DNA of 44,788 bases. Source: Spirochaetaceae bacterium (GTDB lineage: Bacteria; Spirochaetota; Spirochaetia; Treponematales; Treponemataceae). The notes below the pieces were generated by a model that searched no databases, had not been told where the DNA came from, and saw nothing but the letters and a program-made list of their open reading frames with translations. This document shows, piece after piece, positions 9,960-35,906 of the stretch (position 1 is the first letter of the stretch; each line of letters begins with the position of its first letter). The DNA lies in assembly GCA_017614995.1 (NCBI GenBank), contig JAGAAX010000032.1:1-44788 (forward strand). Reading direction: 5' to 3'. The position numbers were made by a program, and so were the translations under genes.

Positions 9960-10394
9960 TTAGGAATAATCAACAATATCAAAAGCTTCTAATATTTCAA
10001 AATCTGAAGGATTTGCTGTCCAAAGTTCAGACACACCGGCTTCTGCAAAGGCTGCTGCCATGTGAGTATCTTGAATCCTTTTTCTGCCAAGACTGAACAT
10101 ATTGCACCATAGAAGTGCTCGTTTAAGTGAATTTTCAGTAGGATAGATTATTTTTATGCGTTCATGGTCAATCCAAAACCATGTGCGCTCAACAGCCTTT
10201 TCCATTGAAAGAGGGCTGTTAAAACGTCTTGCATCTGTAATTACATGCTGAAATTCTAGAAATGTATGGCTGTAAATTGCAAGCACAGAATGTTTTTCGA
10301 CCTGCCATTTATTGAAAAGTTTTAAAGCACCTTCATGCCGGGGTGAATCAGTTATTTCCAAATCAATCAGAAACGTTGTGTCTATTCCTATCAA
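9960..10394 (-). CDS. vapC: VapC-type PIN-domain toxin
   Basis: A 144-residue PIN-domain RNase of the VapC group. The acidic metal-binding residues are visible: D5 in GIDTTFLID, E47 in HTFLEFQHV and D109 in RIQDTHMAA, followed by the TANPSDF motif. Such toxins cleave tRNA or other RNA and are held inactive by the cognate antitoxin. The start is a TTG whose bases overlap the vapB stop (TTGA), with GGAAG about 6 nt before it, so translation is probably coupled. A complete and apparently intact toxin. Confidence 0.85.
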   Translation of the reverse strand: MIGIDTTFLIDLEITDSPRHEGALKLFNKWQVEKHSVLAIYSHTFLEFQHVITDARRFNSPLSMEKAVERTWFWIDHERIKIIYPTENSLKRALLWCNMFSLGRKRIQDTHMAAAFAEAGVSELWTANPSDFEILEAFDIVDYS

Positions 10395-10654
10395 AATGCA
10401 CTTCCAAGCATCTCATCCTGATAATCTTTAGAAACCCAATCACCAGCACCTTGTTTCAATCCACCAAGAGAAATTGGCTCCCATGAATCAAAGGAAGTTT
10501 TTTTCTTTGCATGATTCTGAATATATTCATCCATAGCATCACGCACAAGTTCCGCAGCCTTTCGATTCTGCTCCTTAGCCATCTGCTGAAACATGAGATA
10601 ATTCAATTCTTGAAAATAAATTGTTACCGGTTTCTTCTTCAGTGAAATAGCCAT
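10391..10654 (-). CDS. vapB: VapB-like antitoxin with ribbon-helix-helix N-terminus
   Basis: 87 residues from the ATG at 10654. The N-terminal strand KKPVTIYFQEL followed by helices fits a ribbon-helix-helix DNA-binding fold, and the C-terminal part (SWEPISLGG...) should wrap the toxin. An upstream in-frame ATG at 10669 would lie inside the promoter spacer, so it is rejected. There is no Shine-Dalgarno: the -10 hexamer ends 6 nt before the ATG, predicting a leaderless message. A palindrome in the promoter spacer is the likely autoregulatory site. Confidence 0.8.
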   Translation of the reverse strand: MAISLKKKPVTIYFQELNYLMFQQMAKEQNRKAAELVRDAMDEYIQNHAKKKTSFDSWEPISLGGLKQGAGDWVSKDYQDEMLGSAF

Positions 10655-10660
10655 ACATAT

Positions 10661-10689
10661 AATATACATATACTATATATGTATGTCAA
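10661..10689 (-). promoter_or_regulatory. vapBC promoter with spacer palindrome
   Basis: Minus strand: TTGACA (10684-10689), 17-nt spacer, TATATT (10661-10666), 6 nt, ATG. The palindrome TACATATA-TAG-TATATGTA (10665-10683) fills the spacer and touches the -10, ideal for antitoxin repression. Confidence 0.8.
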
Positions 10690-10741
10690 TTTTTTTTATA
10701 GAACCTGAAAGCAAATTATTATGATAATTTTTGTAAAGTTG

Positions 10742-10862
10742 CTTAGTAAATGTAAGAAGCGTACCTTAATATTGGTAAGATATGTTTCTTAAACAAGTTA
10801 AGATTCGTATCTTACACAGTGTAAGAAAATACTTTTTTTGAGGAATTCTTACACGAGGTAAG
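10742..10862. repeat. Array of CTTA-N7-TAAG palindromes, 23-nt period
   Basis: Five boxes of CTTA, 7 nt, TAAG start at 10742, 10765, 10788, 10811 and 10848. The first four are exactly 23 nt apart; the fifth is 37 nt on. The 7-nt and 8-nt fillers vary. A two-box version with matching flanks lies at 22311-22348. The array ends 9 nt before the end of the higA coding region. Confidence 0.85.
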
Positions 10863-10871
10863 AAAAATTTA

Positions 10872-11153
10872 TTATTGTAATTGCAGAACCAATTTTTTAC
10901 CAAGGACATTAGCTGCTTTTGTTAAAGTTGAGAGGGTTACGGAGTCATTATTTGGATTCAAAAGTCTGTCAAGTGCAGCTCTGGATGTACACATTTTTTT
11001 TGCCATTTCTGTTTTATTGATATTCTGTTTTTTCATTTCATCAAGGAGATTATATGAAATCAAACGTTTGATGGCTTCATTCTTTACTTCTACCGCGATA
11101 TTTTCTTCTTCAAGAAAACTGTCAAAAGAACTTCCTACATATTCGTTATTCAT
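10872..11153 (-). CDS. higA: HigA-like XRE-family antitoxin
   Basis: A 93-residue protein with a helix-turn-helix of the XRE/HigA kind (NKTEMAKKMCTSRAALDRLLNPNNDSVTLSTLTKAANVLG, helices at about residues 46-85). It should neutralise the upstream toxin and repress the operon. Its ATG overlaps the toxin stop by 4 nt, with AGGAG inside the end of the toxin gene. The order is toxin first, as in higBA loci. Confidence 0.82.
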   Translation of the reverse strand: MNNEYVGSSFDSFLEEENIAVEVKNEAIKRLISYNLLDEMKKQNINKTEMAKKMCTSRAALDRLLNPNNDSVTLSTLTKAANVLGKKLVLQLQ

Positions 11154-11506
11154 TTTCTTCCTCCTAAAACTAACTTCTTTCTGTTTTTTGCCAATTCCAA
11201 ATCTTCTAGTGGAGTTTTCTGACTCTTTTTTATTATTGCATGAAGCAGAATCATTTTTTTATTACCCACTGTAAAAAAGATTCTGCAAATTCTCTTGTCA
11301 GAAATAGAAGTCCTTACTTCCCATAAATCGCTGTCCATTTTTCTGACTTTTGGATAACCTACAGGCCAGGACATTTCTACAGCCATTATATCTGCTCCTA
11401 CTGATTTTTTATCTTCAGTTGATAAGGCTGTTAGAAAATCCCTTACAGGTTCATTTCCATTTTCTGTTTTAAAGAAATCAGCCTGTAATTTCTTTTTTAT
11501 TTCCAT
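11150..11506 (-). CDS. higB: HigB/RelE-like mRNA interferase toxin (Gp49-like)
   Basis: 118 residues of the RelE-superfamily Gp49/HigB type: NEPVRDFLTALSTEDKKSVGADI, then VRKMDSDLWEVRTSISDKRICRIFFTVGNKKMILLHAIIKKSQKTP. The LWEVR...RIFF...LLHAIIKKSQKTP series is characteristic. The family cleaves mRNA on the ribosome. It is the first gene of the operon. The ATG has no Shine-Dalgarno and follows the -10 by exactly 6 nt. Confidence 0.85.
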   Translation of the reverse strand: MEIKKKLQADFFKTENGNEPVRDFLTALSTEDKKSVGADIMAVEMSWPVGYPKVRKMDSDLWEVRTSISDKRICRIFFTVGNKKMILLHAIIKKSQKTPLEDLELAKNRKKLVLGGRK

Positions 11507-11512
11507 ATATAA

Positions 11513-11541
11513 AATGTATCATAATTGATACAGTAAGTCAA
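11513..11541 (-). promoter_or_regulatory. higBA promoter with spacer palindrome
   Basis: Minus strand: TTGACT (11536-11541), 17-nt spacer, TACATT (11513-11518), 6 nt, ATG. A perfect palindrome TGTATCA-ATTA-TGATACA covers 11515-11532, overlapping the -10. Likely HigA operator. Confidence 0.8.
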
Positions 11542-11640
11542 ATAAAAACTCTGCCAAAATCTGAAAACCGAAGCGAAGCAATCCAAACATGAAAATTGTG
11601 CCTGATTTTTTCAATTGCTTACATTTTGTGGAATTTTGAA

Positions 11641-11688
11641 AAAAGTCGCCTGTCAGTTGACCATGGAAAGCTGCTTCTGCCTTATATT
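11641..11688 (+). promoter_or_regulatory. Shared regulatory box, copy A
   Basis: AAAAGTCGCCTGTCAGTTGA plus CCAT, then 20 nt from TTGACC (11657-11662) to TATATT (11683-11688). The same arrangement recurs at 16345-16393. GTCARTTGAC is a near or perfect palindrome. The 20-nt spacing is too long for an ordinary -35/-10 pair, so an activator or other factor may be involved. Confidence 0.6.
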
Positions 11689-11737
11689 CAAAACAGTTGA
11701 ACAGAACTAATAAGAATACAAGGAGCTAAGAGAAAAT

Positions 11738-12319
11738 ATGGAAAATGTAAAACTACCAGATACATCATGGCATATTGGATATGTTAAGAAAGATGAAAAT
11801 GATCCTAGGCGGCATAAATCTCGTTGTATTTATAATAATGGAAAACATTGTTCAAATTCACATATGTTATATTGTCAATCATCTGCCCATTGCAGATATT
11901 ATGCTGAAACATGGACAGCAGCTAATAAATACAAAAGAGAAATGCAGCTATCCAACATGAGAGCTGGTATAATTTTATCTCGATCTGTAGATATAAAAAA
12001 AGACGAGATTATTGTGATAAAAAACATACATGATAATAATGTTAAGACTAAATCAGAACTTGATAAGTTTATGAATTTATTAAAGCGTTTGACGAGAAAT
12101 CAGAAACGTAGAATGATTTATTACCGCTACAGTTCATCAAATGTATCAATTCATTTTTCAGATTATTTTCGAAAATATAATTTCGATAGAATTATGAATA
12201 ATACTTTCACAGAAGATGATATAGAAATTAAAATTCTCTATAATTTTTATAATAGAAATAAAAAATTGCTTTTTAGAAAACTCAAAATGCAGAATAAACT
12301 AAATAATAGTTATGTATAG
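11738..12319 (+). CDS. Unknown protein with Cys/His cluster and basic C-terminus
   Basis: 193 residues, not recognised. Residues about 20-60 carry six or more Cys and His (CIYNNGKHCSNSHMLYCQ, SAHCRYY), suggesting a metal-binding knuckle. The rest is rich in Lys, Arg, Asn and Tyr, which would suit a nucleic-acid-binding or toxin-like protein, but this is only inference. Base composition is much more AT-rich than the core genes. AGGAG lies about 12 nt before the ATG, a loose spacing. It shares its upstream box with the cluster starting at 16540. Confidence 0.65.
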   Translation: MENVKLPDTSWHIGYVKKDENDPRRHKSRCIYNNGKHCSNSHMLYCQSSAHCRYYAETWTAANKYKREMQLSNMRAGIILSRSVDIKKDEIIVIKNIHDNNVKTKSELDKFMNLLKRLTRNQKRRMIYYRYSSSNVSIHFSDYFRKYNFDRIMNNTFTEDDIEIKILYNFYNRNKKLLFRKLKMQNKLNNSYV

Positions 12320-12347
12320 AGCTTAGTATTATTCAGTAAATTGAAAC

Positions 12348-12402
12348 TTTTAAGGCTTGTATTTTCATGTTATAATAACAGAAGAAATACGAGCCTTTAA
12401 AT
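12348..12402 (+). promoter_or_regulatory. Promoter of first ankyrin gene with flanking inverted repeat
   Basis: An extended -10, TGT-TATAAT (12368-12376), lies 26 nt before the ATG. The segment AAGGCTTGTATTT upstream is nearly inverted by AAATACGAGCCTT just before the ATG, so the two arms bracket the promoter. The downstream paralogue has the same TG-N-TATAAT and 26-nt spacing at 14358-14366. No good Shine-Dalgarno is visible in either. Confidence 0.55.
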
Positions 12403-14322
12403 ATGAAACCAGAAACCATTATTACAAAGACTGTCAATGTTGAAGTCGATGGAAAATCTATACCTCTTTTTATTACAAATGATTATGCTGCCGTTTTAAA
12501 AGAAATAAAGAGACTGAATTACAAAATTCCACTGTTAGAAGACTATCAGGGGACATATGAATATTTTCCTGATGAAATAAGAGAAGAGATAGAAAAAACA
12601 CTGATAGAACATCACACTTCATGGGGAATATATATAGCAGAAGATTATATAGCTATAATACATTTCTTAGATACAGACACAATGGGTCGTCTAAAAATAA
12701 ATATATCATTATCAGCACTTATTCGAGAAAAAAACGATAAAACACAAACCGATAAAACACAACTGCTTTTGGAATATGCTTCTTTAAATAAAACTGTTGA
12801 AATTGGACAGCTAATCAAAGATGGAGTTGATGTAAATTTTTGTGATGAACAAAAATCTACTGCATTGATGTATGCTGCTTATTTTGATTCTCCTGATTCT
12901 GCTAGTATTCTTTTAAAACTAGGTGCAGATGTTAATGCAAAAAACAAAAATGGATATACAGCACTTATGATAACTACTTGGTTTAATGCTTACAACACAG
13001 CAGAAGAATTATTGAAATCTTCTCATTTAAATGTTGAAGAAAAAGATAATTCAGGAACGAGTGCATTGACTTATGCTGCAGGACAACCCGGAGAAAAGAT
13101 CCTTACAATGCTGATTGAATCTGGTGCGGATGTAAATACAATGAATTTGTGTGGTATAACGCCTTTGCATAAAAGTGCCCGTTTTAATTATATTTCTTGT
13201 ACTGAAATCCTTATAAAAAATGGTGCTAATATAAATCAGACAAACAATCACAATGAAACACCGCTAATGGTGGCAACATATGATGATAATGTTGAAATTG
13301 CAGAAAAATTGCTTTCTTTAGGTGCAGATTTTACAGTGAAAGACTGTTATGGTCGCTCTGCTCTTTGCCATGCAGCTCATAATGATTCTTTTGACTGTAC
13401 ATCACTCTTTTTAAAAAAATGTAATATTTCTGATGAAGATTTGGATTTGGCGATTATCGAAGCGGCAAGATCAAATCATACACAGACTCTTAAACTTCTT
13501 TTAGATAACTCTAAAGACCAAAAATTATCTGCTTTAAATGCTGTAATGGGCGCCTGTATTGAGAACCACCCAAATGTGATTAAATGTTGCAAAGAGTATA
13601 ACTGTGATTTGAATGAAATAAATCAATTAGTATCAATGACTCCTTTAATGGCAGCTTGTTACTGCGGTTCTAAAGAGTCAGTTGGAGAGCTAATATACTC
13701 GGGGGTTGATGTAAATTGTGCAGATGAATATGGTATGACACCACTTATGTATGCTTCAATGGTAAATTCTACAGTCATAGTTTTAATGTTGCTCAACAAT
13801 GGTGCAGATAAAACAGCAAAAGATGAGAACGGAAAGACTTTTGAAGATTATTCTAAAATTAATGAAAAGCGCTCCTTTTCAGATTTTATCACATACAGAA
13901 ATTCAACTCATATAAAACAGGACTTTGAAAGTGAAGAAGAGATTCCAGAAGATCAGCAGCCGTTTATTGAACGTTTTCAGTGGTATAAGCAGAGGTATTT
14001 TGAACGCTTTCCGAATAATAAAGAATCAGATATTTATAATGCTGCAAAAATCTCAAAGCAGACTTTTTCAAAAATCCAAAGCAAAAGGAATACAGCTTAT
14101 CACCCACAAAAGCCCACTATTATTCAGCTTGCATTGGGTTTGCGTTTGAATCTAGATGAAACCAGAGATTTACTAAAAAGTGCAGGGTATGTACTTTCAG
14201 ATGATGATAAAATAGATAGTATAATCAAAAAATTTATTATTGAACTAAAAACCGATCCTCATGAATTAAACGAATATATTGAAAAAATATCCGGTTCTGT
14301 ATTTTTCAAAAAAGTGAAATAG
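12403..14322 (+). CDS. Ankyrin-repeat protein with HTH-like C-terminal module, copy 1
   Basis: 639 residues, no signal peptide. Residues 1-115 form an unrecognised domain shared with the next gene (PETIITK...FITNDYAAV). About residues 125-490 hold eight or more ankyrin repeats (motifs such as TALMYAA, LLKLGADVNAKNKNG, TPLMAACY). Residues about 515-635 form a separate module, beginning PFIERFQWYKQRYFERFPNN, with an HTH-like stretch SDIYNAAKISKQTFSKIQ and LNLDETRDLLKSAGY. I recognise this module from the ends of other bacterial proteins. Ankyrin repeats bind partner proteins, so this could be a sensor or regulator. It is AT-rich and transcribed independently. Confidence 0.8.
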   Translation: MKPETIITKTVNVEVDGKSIPLFITNDYAAVLKEIKRLNYKIPLLEDYQGTYEYFPDEIREEIEKTLIEHHTSWGIYIAEDYIAIIHFLDTDTMGRLKINISLSALIREKNDKTQTDKTQLLLEYASLNKTVEIGQLIKDGVDVNFCDEQKSTALMYAAYFDSPDSASILLKLGADVNAKNKNGYTALMITTWFNAYNTAEELLKSSHLNVEEKDNSGTSALTYAAGQPGEKILTMLIESGADVNTMNLCGITPLHKSARFNYISCTEILIKNGANINQTNNHNETPLMVATYDDNVEIAEKLLSLGADFTVKDCYGRSALCHAAHNDSFDCTSLFLKKCNISDEDLDLAIIEAARSNHTQTLKLLLDNSKDQKLSALNAVMGACIENHPNVIKCCKEYNCDLNEINQLVSMTPLMAACYCGSKESVGELIYSGVDVNCADEYGMTPLMYASMVNSTVIVLMLLNNGADKTAKDENGKTFEDYSKINEKRSFSDFITYRNSTHIKQDFESEEEIPEDQQPFIERFQWYKQRYFERFPNNKESDIYNAAKISKQTFSKIQSKRNTAYHPQKPTIIQLALGLRLNLDETRDLLKSAGYVLSDDDKIDSIIKKFIIELKTDPHELNEYIEKISGSVFFKKVK

Positions 14323-14357
14323 TAAATTTATAAAACTTTTAAGACTTTGGATTTTCA

Positions 14358-14366
14358 TGGTATAAT
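14358..14366 (+). promoter_or_regulatory. Extended -10 of second ankyrin gene
   Basis: TGG-TATAAT, 26 nt before the ATG at 14393, within TTTTCATGGTATAATA, matching the upstream paralogue's promoter. Confidence 0.6.
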
Positions 14367-14392
14367 ATAAGCAGGAAGACGAACCTTTTTGT

Positions 14393-16282
14393 ATGAAACC
14401 GGAAACTATCATTACTAAGAATATCTATGTAGAAATCGGAGCAGAATCTTTTCCATTTTTTATTACAAACGATTATGCTGCTGTTGTAGAAGAAATAAAA
14501 AGATTGAAATATAAAATTCCGCTGTTAGCAGACTATCTGGTCAATGAGCGATTCCCTAATGAAGTAAAAGAAAAGATGATAGAACAGCATACTCGGTGGT
14601 CAATATTTATAACAGAAGATTGTATTGCAGTAACATTTCTTGATGAAAAAATAAATTCGGCAAGTACCGCTCTTATTCGGGAAAAAGCTGAAGAAGAAAC
14701 TCTTGATAAAAAACAACTGCTTTTTGAGTATGCTTCTTTAAATAAAACTTCTGAAATTGAACAGCTTATTAATGAAGGTATTGATGTAGATTCTTGTGAT
14801 GTAGGAGAAATTACTGCATTGATGTATGCTGCCAATTTTGATTCACCGGATGCTGTCCGAACTCTTATAAAACTAGGTGCTGATGTCAACGCAAGAGATA
14901 AAATTGGATTGACAGCACTTATGTGGGCAGCCTGCGAGAATGCCTGCATGAGTGCTGAAGAATTATTGAAATCTTCTGAATTAAATATTGAAGAAAAAAA
15001 TAATGTTGGAGTAACAGCATTAAGCTTTGCTGTATCATGCTGTTGTGAAGATGTTTTTATGCTGCTGATTGAAGCAGGTGCAGATGTGAATACAAAGACC
15101 GTATTTGATTTTACGCCTTTGCATTGTTGTGCTAATTATAATCAAGTTTCTTTCGCTGAAATTCTTATAAAAAATGGTTCAGATATTAATCCTGTTGATA
15201 ATGAAGGTATGACACCCCTAATGCTAGCAGTCTGCTTTAATAATGTTGAAATTGCAGAAATATTGCTTTCAGCAGGTGCTGATATTACAATAAAAGACAG
15301 CCATGGTTTCTCAGTATTTAAATATGCAGCCGAAAATGATTCTTTTGATTGCTTATCACTCTTATTAAAAAAATGTAATATTCCTGATTATGATTTGTTT
15401 GATGCGATTGAAGTAGCCGCAAGAAAAGGTCATACACGCTCTCTTAAACTTCTTGTAGATAAGAGTGAATATAAAGAAGCTTCTGTTAGAATAGCTCTAA
15501 AGTATGCTTGTATAGGAAACCAGCCTGATATAATTGTATTTTGCAAAGAGTATAAATATAATTTCGATAGCATAACATCCTTCTTTATGACACCTTTAAT
15601 GATAACCTGTTACTGCCATTCAACTGAAGCAGCCGCTGAACTAATACGTGCTGGTGTAGATGTAAATTGTGCTGATGAATACGGTATAACAGCTCTTATG
15701 TATGCATCAATGGTAAATGCTCCTAATATAGTTATGATGCTTCTTGACAACGGTGCAGACAGAACTGCAAAAGATAAGGACGGAAAAACTTTTGAAGATT
15801 ATTCAAAAATAAATGAAACTCGACCAATAGAAACATTTGAAGCTTGTAAAGTTTGGAACAAAATCCAAGCACAAGTTGAAGCTAAATTGGAAGCTGAGAT
15901 TTCTGAAAAATCGAAGCCGTTCATAGAACGTTTTCAATGGTATAAGCAGAAATATTTTGAACGGTTTCCGAATAACAAAGATTCGGATATTTATAATGCA
16001 GCTGAAATTTCCAAACAGACTTTTTCAAATATCAAAAAACAAAAGAATAAACTTTTTCACCCCAATAAGCCTACTGTTATTCAACTTGCACTGGGTTTAC
16101 GTTTGAATATAGAAGAAGCTAAAGATTTATTACAAAGTGCAGGTTATGCGCTTTCCGAAGATGATAAAACAGACATTTTAGTTAAAAAATTTATTACAGA
16201 GCAGAAAACTAATCCGTATGAATTAAATGAATATGCTGAAAGAATATCTGGTAATTCACTTTTTCCAAATCTAAGGTTCTAG
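14393..16282 (+). CDS. Ankyrin-repeat protein with HTH-like C-terminal module, copy 2
   Basis: 629 residues, paralogue of the gene 70 nt upstream. It has the same three-part plan: N-terminal domain (residues 1-110), eight or more ankyrin repeats (about 120-480), and the C-terminal module from PFIERFQWYKQKYFERFPNN with SDIYNAAEISKQTFSNIK. The ends are nearly identical between copies while the ankyrin surfaces differ, which suggests a shared output and diverging partners. Its own promoter is a duplicate of the first gene's, so the duplication unit included the regulatory region. No Shine-Dalgarno is seen. The function is unknown. Confidence 0.8.
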   Translation: MKPETIITKNIYVEIGAESFPFFITNDYAAVVEEIKRLKYKIPLLADYLVNERFPNEVKEKMIEQHTRWSIFITEDCIAVTFLDEKINSASTALIREKAEEETLDKKQLLFEYASLNKTSEIEQLINEGIDVDSCDVGEITALMYAANFDSPDAVRTLIKLGADVNARDKIGLTALMWAACENACMSAEELLKSSELNIEEKNNVGVTALSFAVSCCCEDVFMLLIEAGADVNTKTVFDFTPLHCCANYNQVSFAEILIKNGSDINPVDNEGMTPLMLAVCFNNVEIAEILLSAGADITIKDSHGFSVFKYAAENDSFDCLSLLLKKCNIPDYDLFDAIEVAARKGHTRSLKLLVDKSEYKEASVRIALKYACIGNQPDIIVFCKEYKYNFDSITSFFMTPLMITCYCHSTEAAAELIRAGVDVNCADEYGITALMYASMVNAPNIVMMLLDNGADRTAKDKDGKTFEDYSKINETRPIETFEACKVWNKIQAQVEAKLEAEISEKSKPFIERFQWYKQKYFERFPNNKDSDIYNAAEISKQTFSNIKKQKNKLFHPNKPTVIQLALGLRLNIEEAKDLLQSAGYALSEDDKTDILVKKFITEQKTNPYELNEYAERISGNSLFPNLRF

Positions 16283-16344
16283 ATTTCTGATAACTACTCA
16301 AAAAAACAAAAAGCTCTATTTTTTTGAAATTCCTTTTTTCCTCT

Positions 16345-16393
16345 AAAAAGTCGCCTGTCAATTGACCATTCTCTGCGCAGCTTTCCTTATACT
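16345..16393 (+). promoter_or_regulatory. Shared regulatory box, copy B
   Basis: AAAAAGTCGCCTGTCAATTG plus ACCAT (16345-16369), then TATACT at 16388-16393, again 20 nt after TTGACC. GTCAATTGAC is a perfect palindrome here. It heads the small-gene cluster after a leader of about 145 nt that otherwise shows no gene. Confidence 0.6.
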
Positions 16394-16539
16394 CAACTTA
16401 TGATTTGCAGTTAGATAAATGACTGCAAGCTATAGAGAGCTAACAACAGACAATACTTCTGCTAATTAACAGAAGCTTCATGATTAGAAATATGAGGAGG
16501 TGAAAAACCTAAAACTTATAATTACAAGGAGAATGCAGC

Positions 16540-16725
16540 ATGTTCAATTTGAGCTGTTATTCACAGAAATACTTTGAAGAAATTATGAAAGAGAATTCTA
16601 AAAAGCAAAACAGGCAAGAGGGATTCTCGGAGGATGAATTGAAACAGGCATTTGAAGCAGGCTTTAAATTCTGCAAAGAAATGATTCACTGTTTCATTTC
16701 AGATATAGATAAAAAGAAGTCATAG
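16540..16725 (+). CDS. Small hypothetical protein
   Basis: 61 residues, not recognised; mostly helical by composition (EDELKQAFEAGFKFCKEMIHCF). AAGGAG lies about 9 nt before the ATG. First gene of a same-strand cluster running to 18793. It could be a small adaptor, but nothing shows its role. Confidence 0.6.
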   Translation: MFNLSCYSQKYFEEIMKENSKKQNRQEGFSEDELKQAFEAGFKFCKEMIHCFISDIDKKKS

Positions 16726-16788
16726 AGACAAGCGTTCTTGGGAACGTAAAACTAACATATATTCAAGAGAATGACATAGGAGTTTGAA

Positions 16789-17106
16789 ATGAACGAAGTA
16801 AGAATTTCAGGACACGTAAACCTTGCTTTTATTGATGACAATGGACATTTGTGCTGCACAATAGTATGCACTCACGACCACTATGTAGACGGCTACAATG
16901 TAGTAACCCAGACATACATCAGAGGTTTCATGCTGGACAGGTTAGCTTCAAAGGCTGCCGACATTCACGAAGGCGACGATGTATTTATCACTGGACACTT
17001 GAAGCAGGATATTAAACACAATGCTTCCGGCAATTTCCACCGGAAAGTAAATCTTTATATAGACCACATTGAAAAACAGGCTGTAAATGAGAATAAATTT
17101 TTTTAA
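16789..17106 (+). CDS. SSB-like OB-fold protein
   Basis: 105 residues resembling a short single-stranded DNA-binding protein: an N-terminal strand NEVRISGHVNLAFI, a central TYIRGFMLDRLASKAADIHEGDDVFITGHLKQD (family: GDxVxVxGxL) and a final strand KVNLYIDHIE. It lacks the acidic tail of housekeeping SSB. AGGAG sits 7 nt before the ATG. Mobile-element and plasmid modules often carry such small SSBs, which supports an acquired origin for this cluster. Confidence 0.65.
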   Translation: MNEVRISGHVNLAFIDDNGHLCCTIVCTHDHYVDGYNVVTQTYIRGFMLDRLASKAADIHEGDDVFITGHLKQDIKHNASGNFHRKVNLYIDHIEKQAVNENKFF

Positions 17107-17110
17107 CCAT

Positions 17111-17144
17111 GTAGCAATTCCTGCTACACCCCCTGTTTTATAAT
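17111..17144 (+). promoter_or_regulatory. Hairpin followed by -10-like element
   Basis: GTAGCA-ATTCC-TGCTAC (17111-17127) is a perfect 6-bp hairpin directly after the SSB-like gene. TATAAT follows at 17139-17144, giving a possible internal promoter for the downstream genes. No T-tract follows the hairpin closely. Confidence 0.4.
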
Positions 17145-17193
17145 TAGAAATATAGATAAAGCTGCCGTACTAATGGCAGAAAGGAGTAAAACC

Positions 17194-17460
17194 ATGAACA
17201 TTACAATAAATCAGACACAGAAAATTATTGCAGCTCTTGAGCTTCTTTCAAAAAAGAAACTTACAGAATCACAACAGACTATAGTTGATGAAGCTTATGA
17301 ATCTATTAAAGAGTGTGCAAAGAAACAGATTGAAAACAATCAGAAAAGCTATGAGCGTATTAAGCGCAAGAGAGCGGAGAATCCTCTTTACGCTCGTGAA
17401 AACAAACGCAAGCTCGGCAAACAGCGTGTTTGTGTAGCAGATTTTATTAAGGAGAAGTAA
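17194..17460 (+). CDS. Small basic helical protein
   Basis: 88 residues from the ATG at 17194, chosen because AAGGAG lies about 7 nt upstream; the longer frame from 17173 reads through that site. The protein is highly charged and helical (ECAKKQIENNQKSYERIKRKR) with a basic C-terminus. No family recognised. The stop is 4 nt before the next gene. Confidence 0.6.
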   Translation: MNITINQTQKIIAALELLSKKKLTESQQTIVDEAYESIKECAKKQIENNQKSYERIKRKRAENPLYARENKRKLGKQRVCVADFIKEK

Positions 17461-17464
17461 ATCT

Positions 17465-17683
17465 ATGAAAACAATTATGGGAGTTTATTCAGATGTTGCA
17501 TTGGTTTGCAAACCGCAGGCTTTTAAAGAGTTACATGGGGTTTTCTGGCAGATTTATGATGACGAAGTAAGAATCGTCGGTCTTTTAAGGCAGAAACATT
17601 TCAGCAATAACTATCCGCTTGTTTTTGTACAGGCAGAGCATATCGATTTGAAACCAAAAAAAGCTAAAGGAGGCAGAAAATGA
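17465..17683 (+). CDS. Small hypothetical protein
   Basis: 72 residues. A compact, probably beta-rich body (LHGVFWQIYDDEVRIVGLL) ends in a basic tail KPKKAKGGRK. GGAG from the end of the previous gene serves as ribosome binding site. The stop overlaps the next start (ATGA), so the two are translationally coupled. No family recognised. Confidence 0.6.
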   Translation: MKTIMGVYSDVALVCKPQAFKELHGVFWQIYDDEVRIVGLLRQKHFSNNYPLVFVQAEHIDLKPKKAKGGRK

Positions 17684-17982
17684 TACACGATTTCTTGGTA
17701 TCTCTTTTTGGTTATGAACTTGGAGAAGGTTTAGAAATATTGTTGATATGTGTTGTGGTAACATCAATAGTTCTTTTCCCTTTGTGTCTTCCTCTTTTGA
17801 GGAATACTTACTTCATTGACAAAATGAACGAGAAGAATAAAAGAAGACAGAAAGACAATTTCAACTACCAGCTTTCAAAGCTTGTCGGCGATGCTAAAAA
17901 AGATATGGAAATTTCTGAATGTAAAAAGGAAATTGAAGAACTGAAAGCAGAGATTGCAAGGCTTAAAAAAGACAAGAAATGA
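17680..17982 (+). CDS. Small membrane protein with coiled-coil tail
   Basis: 100 residues: one strong membrane segment at about 20-42 (ILLICVVVTSIVLFPLCLPL), then a highly charged stretch, ending in a coiled coil at about 70-98 (CKKEIEELKAEIARLKKDKK). AGGAGG lies shortly upstream of the ATG. It precedes the membrane-anchored hydrolase and may form a membrane complex with it. A spanin-like role is possible by shape only. Confidence 0.65.
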   Translation: MIHDFLVSLFGYELGEGLEILLICVVVTSIVLFPLCLPLLRNTYFIDKMNEKNKRRQKDNFNYQLSKLVGDAKKDMEISECKKEIEELKAEIARLKKDKK

Positions 17983-17998
17983 ATTTGGAGGTTAAGCC

Positions 17999-18793
17999 AT
18001 GAAAGATAACAATGAAATCAGATTCATTCACCGCGAAGAAACATTTACCGACCTTGCCGTAAGGGAACTTGCAGAGAGCTGTGCTGCCTGTCTGTGCCGT
18101 TTGCAGTTCAAACGCTGTACAGAAGACGAGTGTGAAAACTGTCAGGAAGGTATCGGATTCCGCAGATGTTACAACCAGATGAGTGATTATGACAGACAGC
18201 GTTTCAGCACCTATCTCAGACAGGCTTATGCAAGAAACGCCGAACACCCGGAAATGTGGCGTACATTCAAAGGTCTTGTCGGTCATGCAATTCTCTGGAT
18301 ATTGGGATTCTTTGCAGCATTTTTCTTTATCGGTTTCTTCCTGAGCGAGTGCGACAAGCCTAACAGACCGATAAAAGACAGCTATGCTTCTATCACTAAG
18401 GAAATGCACAGCAAGGTTTCAAACAATATCCGCTACACAAGCTTGAACATTTTCGATGTAACGGCGGACGGCAAGAAAAACTGTCAGGACTATTCGATAC
18501 TGTTCTACCTTTACTGGCAGGACAGATTCCCGGAAGACAAAGACAGAGTTTTCTTTGTGCGGAACAAGAATCCGTATAACGGAATGAATCACCTGTTTAT
18601 TTACATGATAGATTATGACGGCAGGGGATTTTATCTTGAACCGTGGGCAGATGTTCCGACCAGATACCTGATGTTTGATAGCTGGACTTCAAGATACAAT
18701 CCGAAGTACAACGAGATTATGCCTGCCGAGCGTTATCTTGAACGGGCAGTCAATGCAGTTTACAGAAGGAGGTATTCAAAAGAACCGAAATGA
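17999..18793 (+). CDS. Membrane-anchored transglutaminase/papain-like Cys-His-Asp protein
   Basis: 264 residues in three parts. Residues 1-60 carry seven Cys (CAACLC, CTEDECENC, C57), suggesting a zinc-binding domain. Residues about 94-115 are one membrane segment. Residues 125-264 look like a transglutaminase-like cysteine hydrolase: Cys162 in KKNCQDYSILFYLYW, His198 in GMNHLFIYMID, and Asp218 (or Glu214) in YLEPWAD are spaced as a Cys-His-Asp triad. If the N-terminus is inside, the catalytic part is outside the membrane. GGAGG lies 8 nt before the ATG. Last gene of the cluster. No named family is certain. Confidence 0.65.
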   Translation: MKDNNEIRFIHREETFTDLAVRELAESCAACLCRLQFKRCTEDECENCQEGIGFRRCYNQMSDYDRQRFSTYLRQAYARNAEHPEMWRTFKGLVGHAILWILGFFAAFFFIGFFLSECDKPNRPIKDSYASITKEMHSKVSNNIRYTSLNIFDVTADGKKNCQDYSILFYLYWQDRFPEDKDRVFFVRNKNPYNGMNHLFIYMIDYDGRGFYLEPWADVPTRYLMFDSWTSRYNPKYNEIMPAERYLERAVNAVYRRRYSKEPK

Positions 18794-18805
18794 CAGGCTC
18801 TAGTA

Positions 18806-18847
18806 TAAACCGCAGTTCCGTTTGCTGTTTTACGGAACGCGGTTTAT
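18806..18847 (+). terminator. Hairpin after the small-gene cluster
   Basis: AAACCGC(A)GTTCCGT pairs with ACGGAACGCGGTTT around a short T-rich loop, one bulged A. Only a weak T-rich tail follows (ATGTTATGCTTATTTTTT). Probable terminator, possibly bidirectional. Confidence 0.65.
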
Positions 18848-18957
18848 GTTATGCTTATTTTTTCTCAATAATCTCCCAGTGACTAGCTCGTCTGTTTTGT
18901 GTTCAAGGGCGGATGTGTCGGCGGTGCTGTCGGCTTTTTTTGCCGTGAGGATTTGGT

Positions 18958-19335
18958 CTACCAGGTCGTTTCTACTTCATATTTAGGAATGATTGTGTCC
19001 TTCGTGATTATAGTAATATTTTCCAATTGGGCAGTTGCAATCAAAAGCCTGTCAAATGGATCTCGGTGGATAAAATCAAGTGTTTTAGTTTTTTCAATAT
19101 GAGAAGCATTTATTGGAAGCTGTTGGAATCATGCATTTTTGCAAAATTCATCGAGTTCTGTAACTGCAAGAGCCATATCAAGTTTCCCAAGTTTTTGCTT
19201 AATTGCAATTTCCCATAAAGATGCAATGCTGTAAAAGCAAGTTTCAGATTCCATAAGGGAACGGGCATTTTGGGAAAGTTCGCCATTTCCCTGTGCATAC
19301 CAAAGAATTGCATGAGTATCGAGCAAGTATTTCAT
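18958..19335 (-). pseudogene. vapC: VapC PIN-domain toxin interrupted by in-frame TGA
   Basis: The frame from ATG 19335 to TAG at 18958-18960 encodes a full VapC of about 125 residues, broken only by a TGA at 19129-19131. The first part has MKYLLDTHAILWY (catalytic D6) and SIASLWEIAIKQKLGKL. After the TGA the same frame continues FQQLPINASHIEKTKTLDFI, then HRDPFDRLLIATAQLE and ITIITKDTI, exactly the C-terminal PIN motifs. The family usually has Gly at the stop position (N-G-F..LPI), so GGA to TGA is one base change. Without readthrough the product lacks two catalytic acids. It overlaps the vapB stop by one base. Confidence 0.85.
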
Positions 19336-19559
19336 CACATATACTCCGCAAAATCTTCTATTGGTTCATCAAAATCTGGAGCAATATATGTAATTTTTTT
19401 CTTTAAGGCGCCAAAATATGACTTTTTTTGGGTGTTTTCATGATGTTCTGAAAACTTGCTTTTATTCACATGATTTGCAATATATGCAAGCAAATAAAGC
19501 TGCTCTTCCATAGAGAAATCTAGTATCTTATTCTGTACCTGTAAAAGTTCATCGCTCAT
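19335..19559 (-). CDS. vapB: Antitoxin of the interrupted VapBC module
   Basis: 74 residues, resembling DUF2281-type VapB antitoxins: N-terminal helices (SMEEQLYLLAYIANHVNKSK) and a C-terminal acidic tail (YIAPDFDEPIEDFAEYM) that would bind the toxin. GGAGG lies 7 nt before the ATG, and an extended -10 TGG-TATAAT is about 20 nt upstream. The antitoxin frame is intact while its toxin is not. Confidence 0.75.
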   Translation of the reverse strand: MSDELLQVQNKILDFSMEEQLYLLAYIANHVNKSKFSEHHENTQKKSYFGALKKKITYIAPDFDEPIEDFAEYM

Positions 19560-19757
19560 ATTGCCACCTCCATCCGCTTACATTATACCATCTTTTGCGA
19601 AAAAATATATCTACTTTAAAGTGCTTTTATTGAATAAGCTTTACTATCAAGTATTATTAATAATGCCGGATTTTTATAATATTCATCTTCGGTATATCCT
19701 GTATAAATAGAAAGAATTGAAAACGCCTATGATGATATAGACAATCTTGTAAAGACT

Positions 19758-19823
19758 GGAAAGCATTTGTGGTAGAGCGCACTTTGTAAGCAGAATGTTT
19801 ACTTTTAGGTGATAGTCTGCTAT
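19758..19823 (+). repeat. 66-bp dispersed repeat, copy 1
   Basis: It starts GGAAAGCATTTGTGGTAGAG and ends GTCTGCTAT. It aligns without gaps to 22096-22161 with seven differences by eye. Read on the minus strand it encodes the spurious VRSTTNAF-type peptide. The gene-free stretch 19560-19884 otherwise holds the antitoxin promoter and the hairpin at 19827-19866. Confidence 0.75.
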
Positions 19824-19826
19824 TCT

Positions 19827-19866
19827 TATAGAAAAATTTTGCATATATACGCAAAATTTTTCTATA
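19827..19866. repeat. 16-bp perfect hairpin before the ATPase gene
   Basis: TATAGAAAAATTTTGC (19827-19842), 8-nt loop, and its exact complement GCAAAATTTTTCTATA (19851-19866). A related sequence lies just after the ATPase gene at 21231-21277. Confidence 0.8.
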
Positions 19867-19884
19867 GAAACAGAGGCGTAGTAT

Positions 19885-21183
19885 ATGATTCATAGAGATA
19901 TACTTTTACAAAAACTTATCGATAGAAAACAGAACGGCAGGATTAAAGTTATTACTGGTTTGCGCCGTTCTGGAAAGTCGTTTTTACTCACCGATATATA
20001 CATACCATATTTAAAAGAACATGGAATAGAAGACAAATGTATTATAAATCTTTCTTTAGAAGAATTTGCCAACACAAAATATAGAAACCCTGTCGAGCTT
20101 GATGCCTTTGTCCGTTCAAAGATAACCGATAGTTCTAAGCAGTATTTTGTTTTTTTGGACGAAATCCAAAAAGTCGAAGAAATTCAAAATCCATTTATAA
20201 GCGGCGTAGAAAGCAAAATTACCTTTGTAGATGTTGTGCTTGGTCTTATGAAAATAAAAAATGTAGATCTCTATATTACCGGCTCAAATTCAAAAATGCT
20301 TTCTTCAGATATTCTTACAGAATTTAGAGGACGCGGTGATGAAGTTCAAGTTCATCCATTGTCTTATGCGGAATTTTATTCAGGATATACAGGCGACAAA
20401 AAAAATGCATGGCGGGATTATTTTACTTATGGGGGACTTCCGGGACTTATTGACTGTAAGACGCATGAACAAAAAAGTGCATATCTAAAAGATTTATTTG
20501 AAAACACTTATATATCTGATATTTTGGAGCGGAATGGAATAAAAAACGAAAGGAATGTTCTTGATTCTTTATTGAATGTTCTTTCGTCAGCAGTAGGTTC
20601 GCTTACAAATTGTAATACAATAGCAAATACTTTTAAAAGTGTTCAAAAAATCGCTATAAGTCAAAATACGATAGACTTGTATATTTCATATTTTGAGGAT
20701 GCTTTTCTTATAAAAAAGGCAGAGCGCTTTGATGTAAAAGGGCGGCGTTATATCGGTAGTCAGCAGAAATATTATTTTGAAGATATTGGCTTGCGGAATG
20801 CACGCTTAGGTTTCAGACAGACTGAAGAAAATCACATAATGGAAAATATCATTTATAATGAGCTTATTTTCAGAGGGTTTGAAGTTGATGTCGGTGTTGT
20901 CGAATATAACTACAAAGATTTTGAGGGCAAAAGCAGGCGGACTCAGCTTGAAGTTGATTTTGTAGCCAACTGCGGAAACAAACGCTATTACATTCAATCT
21001 GCCTTGTCTGTCGCAGATGAAGAAAAGCGTCTTCAGGAGATTAATTCTCTAAAGCGTATTTCAGATTCGTACAAAAAAATTGTAGTTGTAAAAGACAATA
21101 TAATTCCCTGGCACGATGAAAAGGGCATTTTGTATCTTGGCATTGAGGAATTCTTATTGAATCCGCTTGCAATAGACGGATAG
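19885..21183 (+). CDS. AAA-type ATPase with DUF4143 C-terminal domain
   Basis: 432 residues of the widespread ATP-binding AAA_14/DUF4143 family. Walker A is GLRRSGKS (about residues 25-32), Walker B YFVFLDEIQ (about 88-96), sensor-like YITGSNSKML, and RGRGDEVQVHPLSYAEF follows. The second half (DYFTYGGLPGL, LEVDFVAN) matches DUF4143. The cellular role of the family is poorly known. GAGG sits 8 nt before the ATG. The gene is alone between two related hairpins and looks like an accessory single-gene unit. Confidence 0.88.
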   Translation: MIHRDILLQKLIDRKQNGRIKVITGLRRSGKSFLLTDIYIPYLKEHGIEDKCIINLSLEEFANTKYRNPVELDAFVRSKITDSSKQYFVFLDEIQKVEEIQNPFISGVESKITFVDVVLGLMKIKNVDLYITGSNSKMLSSDILTEFRGRGDEVQVHPLSYAEFYSGYTGDKKNAWRDYFTYGGLPGLIDCKTHEQKSAYLKDLFENTYISDILERNGIKNERNVLDSLLNVLSSAVGSLTNCNTIANTFKSVQKIAISQNTIDLYISYFEDAFLIKKAERFDVKGRRYIGSQQKYYFEDIGLRNARLGFRQTEENHIMENIIYNELIFRGFEVDVGVVEYNYKDFEGKSRRTQLEVDFVANCGNKRYYIQSALSVADEEKRLQEINSLKRISDSYKKIVVVKDNIIPWHDEKGILYLGIEEFLLNPLAIDG

Positions 21184-21230
21184 ATTTTATTTAGACCAAA
21201 GACCTGAGATAAGGGATTAACCTAAGCTAT

Positions 21231-21277
21231 CAGAAAAAAAATGCGTATTTACGCAAAATTTTTCTGTAGAAACAGAA
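21231..21277. repeat. Hairpin related to 19827-19866, after the ATPase gene
   Basis: CAGAAAAAAAATGCG, TATTTA, then CGCAAAATTTTTCTG followed by TAGAAACAG. The right arm and tail TACGCAAAATTTTTCT plus RTAGAAACAGA are shared with the upstream copy; the left arm is less perfect. Confidence 0.65.
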
Positions 21278-21318
21278 AAACTGTTTTAAGCGATAAAACA
21301 AAAGGTACCGTACATTGC

Positions 21319-21418
21319 AAGAGCCTGTGTAGGCGGATTTTGGCGCGCAAAAAATTCTGCAGGCACGAAGTGCCGAAGCCTTTTTGCGTGACGGAATCCG
21401 ACGAGAGCAGGCTCTTGA
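21319..21418 (+). repeat. Covarying hairpin repeat, copy 2
   Basis: Outer stem AAGAGCCTG/CAGGCTCTT, inner CGGATT/AATCCG, then GCGCAAAAA/TTTTTGCG, apex GGCAC-GAA-GTGCC. The sequence is almost identical to 22180-22279 and structurally matches 5482-5573. In copies 2 and 3 the flank CGTACAYTG precedes the element, so the repeat may start slightly earlier. Confidence 0.8.
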
Positions 21419-21434
21419 TTCGTGCCGAGGGTTT

Positions 21435-21465
21435 GATACCCCGACGCTCTGCGTCGAGTTTGTTG
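21435..21465. repeat. Decayed copy of the TCT-loop hairpin
   Basis: CGACGC-TCT-GCGTCG with partly paired flanks and TTGTTGATT after it, related to 146-180. It overlaps the -35 of the relB promoter. Confidence 0.5.
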
Positions 21466-21501
21466 ATTTCTGTGTGACATTGTGCTATATTGTATATACA
21501 A
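21463..21501 (+). promoter_or_regulatory. relB-yoeB promoter and operator
   Basis: TTGATT (21463-21468), 17-nt spacer, TATATT (21486-21491). The perfect palindrome TTGTATATACAA (21490-21501) overlaps the -10 end and the start region, a likely antitoxin operator. Confidence 0.7.
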
Positions 21502-21525
21502 AATGATTATTCTGGAGGCAAAACT

Positions 21526-21774
21526 ATGGCAACGCTCAGCATTAGAACTGATGACAGCAAAAAACACAATTTTGAAGGATTCTGCGAATCTATTGGAATT
21601 ACTGTAAGTTCCGCAGTCAATATGTTTATGACAGCCTGTCTTCGTGAAAATAAAATTCCATTTGAACTTAAGGCAGACCCGTTCTGGAGCGAAGAAAATC
21701 AGGAACGGCTTAAAGAATCTATTAAGCAGATTGAAGAAGGAAAATTTTCTGAGCATGATTTGATTGAGGTTTGA
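21526..21774 (+). CDS. relB: RelB/DinJ-family antitoxin
   Basis: 82 residues from ATG 21526 (GGAGG 8 nt upstream). The N-terminal ribbon-helix-helix part, ATLSIRTDDSKKHNFEGFCE then IGITVSSAVNMFMTACLRE, is typical of RelB/DinJ. The C-terminal part (ERLKESIKQIEEGKFSEHDL) binds the toxin. A longer frame from 21490 begins inside the promoter and is rejected. The stop codon overlaps the toxin start region (TGATGATG). Confidence 0.85.
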   Translation: MATLSIRTDDSKKHNFEGFCESIGITVSSAVNMFMTACLRENKIPFELKADPFWSEENQERLKESIKQIEEGKFSEHDLIEV

Positions 21775-21776
21775 TG

Positions 21777-22034
21777 ATGAAAAAACAGTGGTCAGAACTT
21801 GCGTGGGAAGATTATCTTTTACTTCAATCAGACAAAAAACTTTTAAAAAAAGCAAATACACTCTTAAAAGATATTGAGAGAAACGGTTATTCTGGTCTTG
21901 GAAAACCTGAGCCGTTAAAAGATGATTTATCTGGTTATTGGAGTAGGCGAATTGACGATTATCACCGAATTGTTTACAAAATTGAGGGTGATGTTGTATA
22001 TATAGCACAATGCGGAACACATTACCACAAATAA
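21777..22034 (+). CDS. yoeB: YoeB-type mRNA interferase toxin
   Basis: 85 residues matching Txe/YoeB throughout: KKQWSELAWEDYLL, GKPEPLKDDLSGYWSRRI, DDYHRIVYKI and the C-terminal HYHK (catalytic His region). The family cuts mRNA in the ribosomal A site. The start could also be the ATG at 21774, which shares a base with the relB stop. Complete length, key residues present. The partner is RelB/DinJ-like, not the classical YefM. Confidence 0.9.
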   Translation: MKKQWSELAWEDYLLLQSDKKLLKKANTLLKDIERNGYSGLGKPEPLKDDLSGYWSRRIDDYHRIVYKIEGDVVYIAQCGTHYHK

Positions 22035-22095
22035 GCATATTCCATTTTCATACGTCTAAAATAACTAATTATTGTTATCAAATTTAAACAGAACA

Positions 22096-22161
22096 GGAAA
22101 GCATTTGTGGTAGAGCGTACACTGTAAGCAAAATATTTCCTTTTAGGTGATGGTCTGCTAT
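22096..22161 (+). repeat. 66-bp dispersed repeat, copy 2
   Basis: Matches 19758-19823 with about 59 of 66 bases the same. It is followed here by the covarying hairpin copy 3, whereas copy 1 is followed by the 16-bp hairpin. The stretch 22035-22391 has no gene and consists of this repeat, the hairpin and the two-box CTTA/TAAG element. Confidence 0.75.
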
Positions 22162-22179
22162 AGACATCGTACACTGCCC

Positions 22180-22279
22180 AAGAGACTGCGTAGACGGATT
22201 TTGGCGCGCAAAAAATTCTGCAGGCACGAAGTGCCGAAGCCTTTTTGCGTGACGGAATCCGACGAGAGCAGGCTCTTGA
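22180..22279 (+). repeat. Covarying hairpin repeat, copy 3
   Basis: Nearly identical to 21319-21418; a few changes in the left outer arm (AAGAGACTG) slightly weaken the outer stem. Same GGCAC-GAA-GTGCC apex. Confidence 0.8.
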
Positions 22280-22310
22280 TTGATGGGTCTGAAATAATTT
22301 GCAAAGTATG

Positions 22311-22348
22311 CTTACTAAATGTAAGATGCATAGCTTACACCGCCTAAG
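22311..22348. repeat. Two-box CTTA-N7-TAAG element
   Basis: Boxes at 22311-22325 and 22334-22348, exactly 23 nt apart. The first unit and left flank match the first unit at 10742 (CTTASTAAATGTAAG), and the second matches the fourth unit there (CTTACAC...TAAGAAAATAC), so this is a shorter version of the same element. Confidence 0.8.
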
Positions 22349-22391
22349 AAAATACATTTGTTACAACCTGCATAATATGCTGAAAAGCTGT

Positions 22392-22425: not shown

Positions 22426-23277
22426 ATGAACACAAATACCTATATTTTAACAATTCAATGTGCAGACCAGAATTCAATTATTGCGGCGGTGAGCGGCTGC
22501 ATTTCCGAAAATGGCGGAAATATTCTTAATCTGGCACAGCATACAGCTGTAGACATCAACATGTTTTTCTGCCGTATTAAATTTGAGGCGACAGATAAAT
22601 TCGATTTGGAATCATTCAAAAAAGGTTTTTCAAAGCTTGAGGAAAAATATAATCTTACATGGCATGTCTTTGATATGGCTGTAAAAAAGCGCGTTGCCAT
22701 TCTTGTTTCTAAGACAAGCCACTGTCTTTACGAGCTTATGCTAAAATATGCCGACGGCGAGCTGGACTGTGAAATTCCTGTGATTATCTCGAACCACCCG
22801 GATTTGGCGCACGTTGCCACTTCGTTCCATATTCCGTTTTATCAGGTTGACCCCGCAAAGGGCAAGGCTGAATACGAAGCCGACCTTGAGGCAATTCTTC
22901 AACAGTATAAAATTGACTTTGTAGTGCTTGCCCGCTACATGCAGGTTATGAGCGGCGACTTCTGCAAACGCTGGCACAACCGCTGCATCAACATTCACCA
23001 TGGATTTTTGCCGGCATTCCGCGGCGCAAAACCATATCATCAGGCATGGAACAAGGGCGTAAAGATTATCGGCGCGACCGGCCACTTTGCGACAGAAGAC
23101 CTTGACCAGGGCCCAATTATCTATCAGGACGTAATACGCGTAAACGATACGCGCTCAATCGACGAGTTTATCCGCATGGGCAAAGACGTTGAGCGCCATG
23201 TATTGTACGAGGCGGTAAGACGCTATCTTGCACATTCAATTTTCTTTTACGAAGGCAGAACTTTCGTAATAGAGTGA
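22426..23277 (+). CDS. purU: Formyltetrahydrofolate deformylase
   Basis: 283 residues. It hydrolyses 10-formyl-THF to THF and formate, supplying formate or balancing one-carbon pools. An N-terminal ACT domain (residues about 4-80, YILTIQCADQNSIIAAVSGC) is followed by the formyltransferase-like catalytic domain: KKRVAILVSKTSHCLYELM, VARYMQVMS-type block (VLARYMQVMSGDF), NIHHGFLPAFRGAKPYHQA with the catalytic His, and GATGHFATEDLDQGPII. Length and motifs are complete. The gene lies 30 nt before the GH36 gene. Confidence 0.95.
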   Translation: MNTNTYILTIQCADQNSIIAAVSGCISENGGNILNLAQHTAVDINMFFCRIKFEATDKFDLESFKKGFSKLEEKYNLTWHVFDMAVKKRVAILVSKTSHCLYELMLKYADGELDCEIPVIISNHPDLAHVATSFHIPFYQVDPAKGKAEYEADLEAILQQYKIDFVVLARYMQVMSGDFCKRWHNRCINIHHGFLPAFRGAKPYHQAWNKGVKIIGATGHFATEDLDQGPIIYQDVIRVNDTRSIDEFIRMGKDVERHVLYEAVRRYLAHSIFFYEGRTFVIE

Positions 23278-35883: not shown

Positions 35884-35906
35884 AAAAAGAGCTTAAAACA
35901 GACCGG

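Follow-up and report, generated by a model that had tools for sequence, protein, structure and literature searches.

What are the regularly spaced palindromes that lie between two toxin-antitoxin pairs in a relative of Treponema, and which protein, if any, reads them? Within the window, the whole stretch of 44,788 nucleotides that we analyzed, a pattern check located boxes of the form CTTA-N7-TAAG starting at positions 10742, 10765, 10788, 10811, and 10848, as well as a two-box version with boxes at 22311 and 22334, exactly where the original prediction had placed them. The first four boxes (10742–10825) follow an exact 23-bp period, the fifth (10848–10862) starts 37 bp beyond the fourth, and the short array (22311–22348) consists of two boxes at 23 bp. 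Altogether the window holds 10 box matches compared with 0.93 expected, a number reached in none of 100 simple shuffles; the remaining three matches (20446, 31245, and 33892) are isolated.

A BLAST search with the window array (C7) and its flanks found copies on other contigs (C42, C49, and C54) and the copy at 22311, so that, among the matches listed, the 3.05-Mb window genome (G000) contains four long arrays in addition to the short one. A sister genome, G006, carries the orthologue of the window array. The long arrays agree unit for unit, with steps of 23, 23, 23, 24, and 37 bp and sometimes an extra 37, a series also seen in relatives, and the tally over arrays is 92 steps of 23 bp, 11 of 24 bp, and seven of 37 bp. 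The fifth window box belongs to this modular array and is not a stray, for the 37-bp step recurs in C42, C49, C54, and G006. The long arrays represent one modular element in several homologous copies rather than independent repeats. While only the eight palindromic bases of each unit had been predicted to be fixed, and these are indeed fixed, box positions 5 and 11 are mostly C and G, giving a 15-bp box CTTAC-N5-GTAAG, and common descent makes the spacers alike from one array to the next as well. Comparing several arrays by eye gives AATCTTACACTGTGTAAGATT followed by two bases as the unit consensus. The proposal that the short version equals the long one without its two middle units has to be revised: the 22311 array lacks at least three internal units of the fuller form, because the window array itself, compared with its G006 orthologue, has already lost one unit of 24 bp.

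Genome-wide, among the matches listed, we counted 13 double units at 23 bp but none for the reversed pattern, which places the arrays above background. Single boxes, by contrast, were not enriched (95 versus 127 for the reversed control, again among the matches listed). The signal thus lies in the arrangement, and we rejected a regulon of single sites. Double units occur in nine of 274 genomes of the family, mostly drafts or metagenome-assembled genomes (MAGs), and the reversed control gave zero everywhere; G258 has 36 double-unit matches, many of them close to contig ends. Across 84,980 species genomes, 21 stretches showed the three-unit pattern, 18 of them in Spirochaetes and mostly in gut MAGs. 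The array is therefore not confined to the two loci of the window, as relatives carry it. Among the three matches outside the spirochaetes, those in Rufibacter and one Bacteroides resemble exact minisatellites; a rumen Bacteroidaceae contig (L062, 7483–7589) has a box-like 23-bp array of CTTACTCTGTGTAAG boxes, with no XRE or HU gene beside it within the stretch examined. A phage origin was rejected since the three-unit pattern was absent from all viral contigs scanned. Arrays with a 22-bp period were also seen in G258 (L120, 7019–7105; palindromic, of the GTTTCAC...GTGAAAC type) and in G257 (L130, 9405–9683).

We next consider what surrounds the arrays in the window; here and in the other genomes, genes outside Pfam matches were called by a simple longest-ORF script. 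The long array is flanked by two toxin-antitoxin pairs, all on the minus strand. One comprises a PIN-domain toxin (9960–10394; PF01850) and a putative antitoxin (10391–10669), assigned by its position and without a Pfam match, whose start faces array unit 1. The other comprises an HTH antitoxin of the HigA type (10872–11153; HTH_3), whose stop codon is 10 bp from the last box, and a Gp49/HigB-like toxin (11150–11506; PF05973). Between the array and the putative antitoxin gene, we read a promoter-like sequence, TTGACA-N17-TATATT (10661–10689, minus strand), and its −35 element is conserved in G006 as well. The left flank of the array (10718–10741) carries ACAAAAATTATCAT on the minus strand and is homologous with C54 from window position 10721. 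Because ACAAAAATTATCAT also sits between the array and the start of an XRE-type repressor gene in C54, G123, and G130, the window left flank shares a segment of an XRE promoter, suggesting that an XRE locus was the source from which it was copied. The C49 array adjoins PIN-domain genes as well. The short array comes after a RelB/YoeB toxin-antitoxin pair (21490–22034, plus strand; PF04221 and PF06769) and lies 78 bp from a PurU-like formyltransferase gene (22426–23277, plus strand), which is a conserved flank. Beside the short array is a dispersed hairpin repeat of about 100 bp (22179–22280; GACGGATTTTGG...CGGAATCCG), part of which also occurs beside C42; among the matches listed, we counted about eleven strong copies genome-wide, most of them lacking an array (loci L138–L147). 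The stretch of about 12.4 kb from 9960 to 22350, between a GH43 gene and purU, varies in gene content, and in G001 these two flanking genes are adjacent to each other.

Dispersed intergenic copies with variable unit number are a feature of BOX- and MITE-like elements, and the arrays could accordingly be neutral or selfish repeats that expand by slippage and spread by recombination, their proximity to defense genes merely reflecting variable intergenic regions. Their modular build with constant ends would fit, as would their patchy distribution, the similar copies at G258 contig ends, and a segment of about 290 bp beside purU, containing the hairpin and the short array, that is present in G000 and absent from G006. 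Unit number is indeed free to change, as had been predicted: the G006 orthologue has six boxes and the window array five, the difference being one 24-bp unit, arrays elsewhere have from two to 12 or more units, and L047 contains near-identical 24-bp copies, as in recent slippage. However, neither terminal inverted repeats nor a target duplication is evident at the one present/absent site (purU), and in other genomes the same gene family has different palindromes upstream at a similar period. Moreover, the outer dyad bases are more conserved than the spacers. In an alignment of five homologous long arrays (the four of G000 and the G006 sister array), outer box bases were variable in one of 40 columns, compared with 15 of 58 inner and spacer columns (Fisher P = 0.002), and the pairwise difference was 0.011 for outer bases versus about 0.12 for inner and spacer positions, a contrast possibly inflated by the definition of the boxes on one sequence and by the first sighting of most arrays through the box pattern. 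This conservation argues against a neutral repeat, an explanation that we regard as unlikely, and points to purifying selection on the dyad for putative binding, in keeping with the original prediction of selection for protein binding or structure.

Of these two targets of selection, structure in the form of a hairpin is not favored. Inner box positions pair less often than predicted from column make-up (18 versus 22.6, and 11 versus 16.5), which fits a protein dimer reading the outer bases rather than a hairpin. Single-strand folds of the arrays do score strongly (z from −3.6 to −9.8), but the palindromes themselves force such scores. With no Rfam match in the window either, we rejected an RNA element.

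A candidate for the binding protein emerged from the genes downstream of the arrays. The array repeatedly precedes an operon whose products are an XRE-type repressor, sometimes an ImmA/IrrE (M78) protease, and an HU-DUF4469 protein; at C54, it lies approximately 100 bp upstream of the XRE gene, which is followed by the HU-DUF4469 gene. The XRE protein matches HTH_3 and the ICEBs1 ImmR structure in the PDB (7t8i, E 8e-6) and, weakly, CapH in PADLOC. The HU gene matches Pfam PF18291, PF14848, and PF14734 and PDB entry 4fmr, an uncharacterized protein. The protease is present in G150, G229, G268, G253, G189, and G021 and absent beside the XRE gene of the window genome and its close relatives. At the cut-off used, the XRE gene was found in six of 274 genomes, five of which have a CTTAC array approximately 100 bp upstream, an association that, with many loci picked for their arrays, is unbiased solely at loci chosen by XRE, HU, or integrase, the XRE gene itself having first been picked beside an array. 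In the remaining genome, G007, the array has a 23-bp period and boxes that are CTCAC-N5-GTGAG or end in GGAAG. Box class broadly follows the class of the XRE recognition helix; in G007, the helix is unchanged and the boxes are altered. A further motif, TTATCAT, is conserved among the XRE promoters; if this is the actual XRE operator, as it could be, XRE may bind elsewhere than the array. In G257 (99% complete), which has arrays, our cut-offs revealed no close orthologue of XRE or HU. None of about 16 arrays with two readable neighbors lies between convergent genes, compared with 20 of 119 intergenic gaps at those loci, a weak contrast scored by eye.

Loci picked for their HU or integrase gene, without regard to arrays, also have regular dyad arrays, here with a period of 23–28 bp and with different palindromes. 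In G001, Cas9, as read from the protein, is followed by a 23-bp array of CTACA/TGTAG and CTTCA/TGAAG boxes and then by HU. G150 has GTTAC-N5-GTAAC boxes between a Cas9-like gene and a divergent XRE-ImmA-HU operon; this box type recurs in G268, where the steps are 24 and 23 and the outer boxes are imperfect; G189 has GTTAAG-N3-CTTAAC boxes with steps of 24, 28, 28, and 28; and G253 has GGAGAGA-type boxes. In a strict test for dyad chains, shuffled sequences equaled the real ones in 0 of 200 cases for G150, G189, and the G000 integron, 1 of 200 for the G007 integron, and 7 of 200 for G253. G229, G268, G021, G070, G001, G165a, and G165b were not significant in this test because many units are asymmetric, and we saw no clear array at the HU loci of G165b, G152, G070, and G229.

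These loci bear on the possibility that HU-DUF4469, not XRE, reads the arrays, coating them largely by shape and folding them into a nucleoprotein that aids recombination or silencing at defense and integron loci. HU is the most constant neighbor: it has an array upstream but no XRE beside it in G001, L047, and G165 (locus G165a), and arrays also adjoin the integron integrase gene intI in G000 and G007. A constant period with varying box sequence is also what recognition by shape predicts. On the other hand, specific outer bases are conserved within one genome, suggesting recognition by sequence, and the boxes do not track HU similarity, given that G258, with an HU 63% identical, has CTTAC boxes and G001, at 68%, does not. 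We consider the HU reading rather improbable as it stands, while keeping HU as the main, and a serious, alternative on the specific matter of the reader. We think that the ImmR/CapH-like XRE repressor is the likelier array reader, because the dyad spacing of 23–24 bp resembles that of lambda operators and because of the broad agreement between box class and helix class.

Across the array from these operons, we found genes for restriction systems of different types: type I (G123 and, from an HsdM start read in the sequence, G007), type III (G130), type IV (G258), and a type II or DISARM-like methyltransferase (G261). Cas9 is also among these neighbors (G001; Cas9-like in G150). At L125, L129, and L131 (G258 and G257), arrays lie 119–252 bp upstream of PDDEXK_2 (Rpn-like) nuclease genes. 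Two comparisons between relatives show homology ending at the array edge: in G123 and G130, a stretch of 1610 bp comprising HU, XRE, and the array shows 96% identity that ends 5 bp past the last box, and G000 and G006 are 92% identical across GH43, the PIN pair, and the array and unrelated beyond. G006 and C54, which differ on the near side of the array, have beyond it a common module that we named DUF975/lipoprotein from its sequence. A GC-rich hairpin repeat of about 77 bp flanks the XRE/HU-restriction island in G123 (L135, 8292–8368 and 16818–16922) and is also present in G130 (L136, 17797–17873).

The location of arrays at module joints raises the question of whether they are sites for a site-specific recombinase, such as an integron attC or attI. 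G000 has a true integron integrase (420 bits), G007 also has one above cut-off, and in both genomes an HU-DUF4469 gene is located immediately upstream of intI, with AATCTAGCTAGATT boxes at a 23-bp period ahead of it. In G000, this palindromic array, HU-DUF4469, and intI occupy L206 13043–15560 (contig C28, about 35042–37559), and cassettes follow, with repeats of approximately 50–120 nt from L206 15689 onward. Nevertheless, nine of the 11 genomes tested, all array-bearing, lack an integrase above cut-off, the cassette repeats differ in sequence from the window array, and the integrase locus contains neither a window-type array nor the hairpin. We rejected an integron cassette site because the integrase is missing from most array genomes, and a site-specific recombination site of any such kind appears highly improbable.

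Our preferred explanation, to which we assign about an even chance, is that the arrays belong to a mobile XRE/HU control module, offer many binding sites each, and have been put to further use in trans and as joints for recombination. Each 15-bp CTTAC-N5-GTAAG box is a predicted site for a protein with two-fold symmetry, and repetition at about 23–24 bp would place several protein copies side by side. The module's own DNA-binding protein would bind the array and control or insulate neighboring genes, both in cis and in trans; if this protein is XRE, its repression would be relieved by the protease where one is present. Defense modules would be exchanged at the array edge, as the two homology breaks partly show, most simply through homologous recombination: arrays recur as blocks between modules, and homologous blocks of this repeated kind suffice without a special enzyme. 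Our comparisons thus suggest that, in some gut relatives of Treponema, the arrays are probably protein-bound and adjoin toxin-antitoxin, restriction, and CRISPR genes that can be exchanged, and that they may control neighboring genes and serve as swap joints.

How newly acquired defense and toxin genes are controlled, and how they are exchanged at fixed spots, is a largely open field. An array that carries control sites at the point of exchange would let one regulator govern unrelated restriction, CRISPR, and toxin-antitoxin modules. More tentatively, and with some doubt on our part, binding arrays that keep nearly the same geometry while their palindrome changes, accompanied by HU-DUF4469 and often XRE/ImmA, might form a class that marks and organizes the defense, CRISPR, and integron loci of Treponemataceae, providing both common control and a docking joint for new defense modules. 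Dyad arrays with a 23-bp period upstream of XRE/HU-DUF4469 genes offer a search rule for such loci.

The original prediction knew of no named element with this pattern, and we likewise found no described family with it in the literature searched. Our search returned no DNA target array for HU-HIG/DUF4469 proteins, no record of the box sequences, and nothing direct on palindromic repeats in Treponema or on XRE/ImmA operators. The BOX elements of Streptococcus pneumoniae are modular intergenic repeats with constant ends and a variable number of tandem middle units; the likeness is one of architecture, and unlike BOX elements, the arrays described here have a partner regulatory operon and conserved dyads. 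The right operator of phage lambda has three dyad sites for an XRE-type repressor, 23–24 bp from center to center. The spacing is alike, whereas the arrays in our genomes have more units and are dispersed to many loci.

ImmR/ImmA, CapH/CapP, and DdrO/IrrE are pairs of an XRE repressor and an M78 protease beside mobile or immune genes (PMC10233336). The XRE protein resembles the repressors of the first two pairs in its match to ICEBs1 ImmR and its weaker one to CapH. In modules of the ImmRA/CapHP type, DNA damage leads to cleavage of a repressor that occupies the operators of neighboring immune genes. Unlike these pairs, the module has HU-DUF4469 as a third gene and an extended operator-like array, and in the window genome it has no protease. 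RptR, from an Escherichia coli defense island, is a repressor that binds repeated palindromic sites in its own promoter, namely three repeats of 9 bp, with TAGCTA lying over the −10 box (PMC12255303). Our arrays differ from its operator in having 15-bp boxes every 23 bp or so, in two to 12 or more units dispersed over the genome, and in being linked to a regulator of the XRE family, which is unmentioned in that paper. What the two share is repeated palindromic sites with neighboring type I restriction genes, the rptR gene itself being located in a restriction-containing island (PMC12255303).
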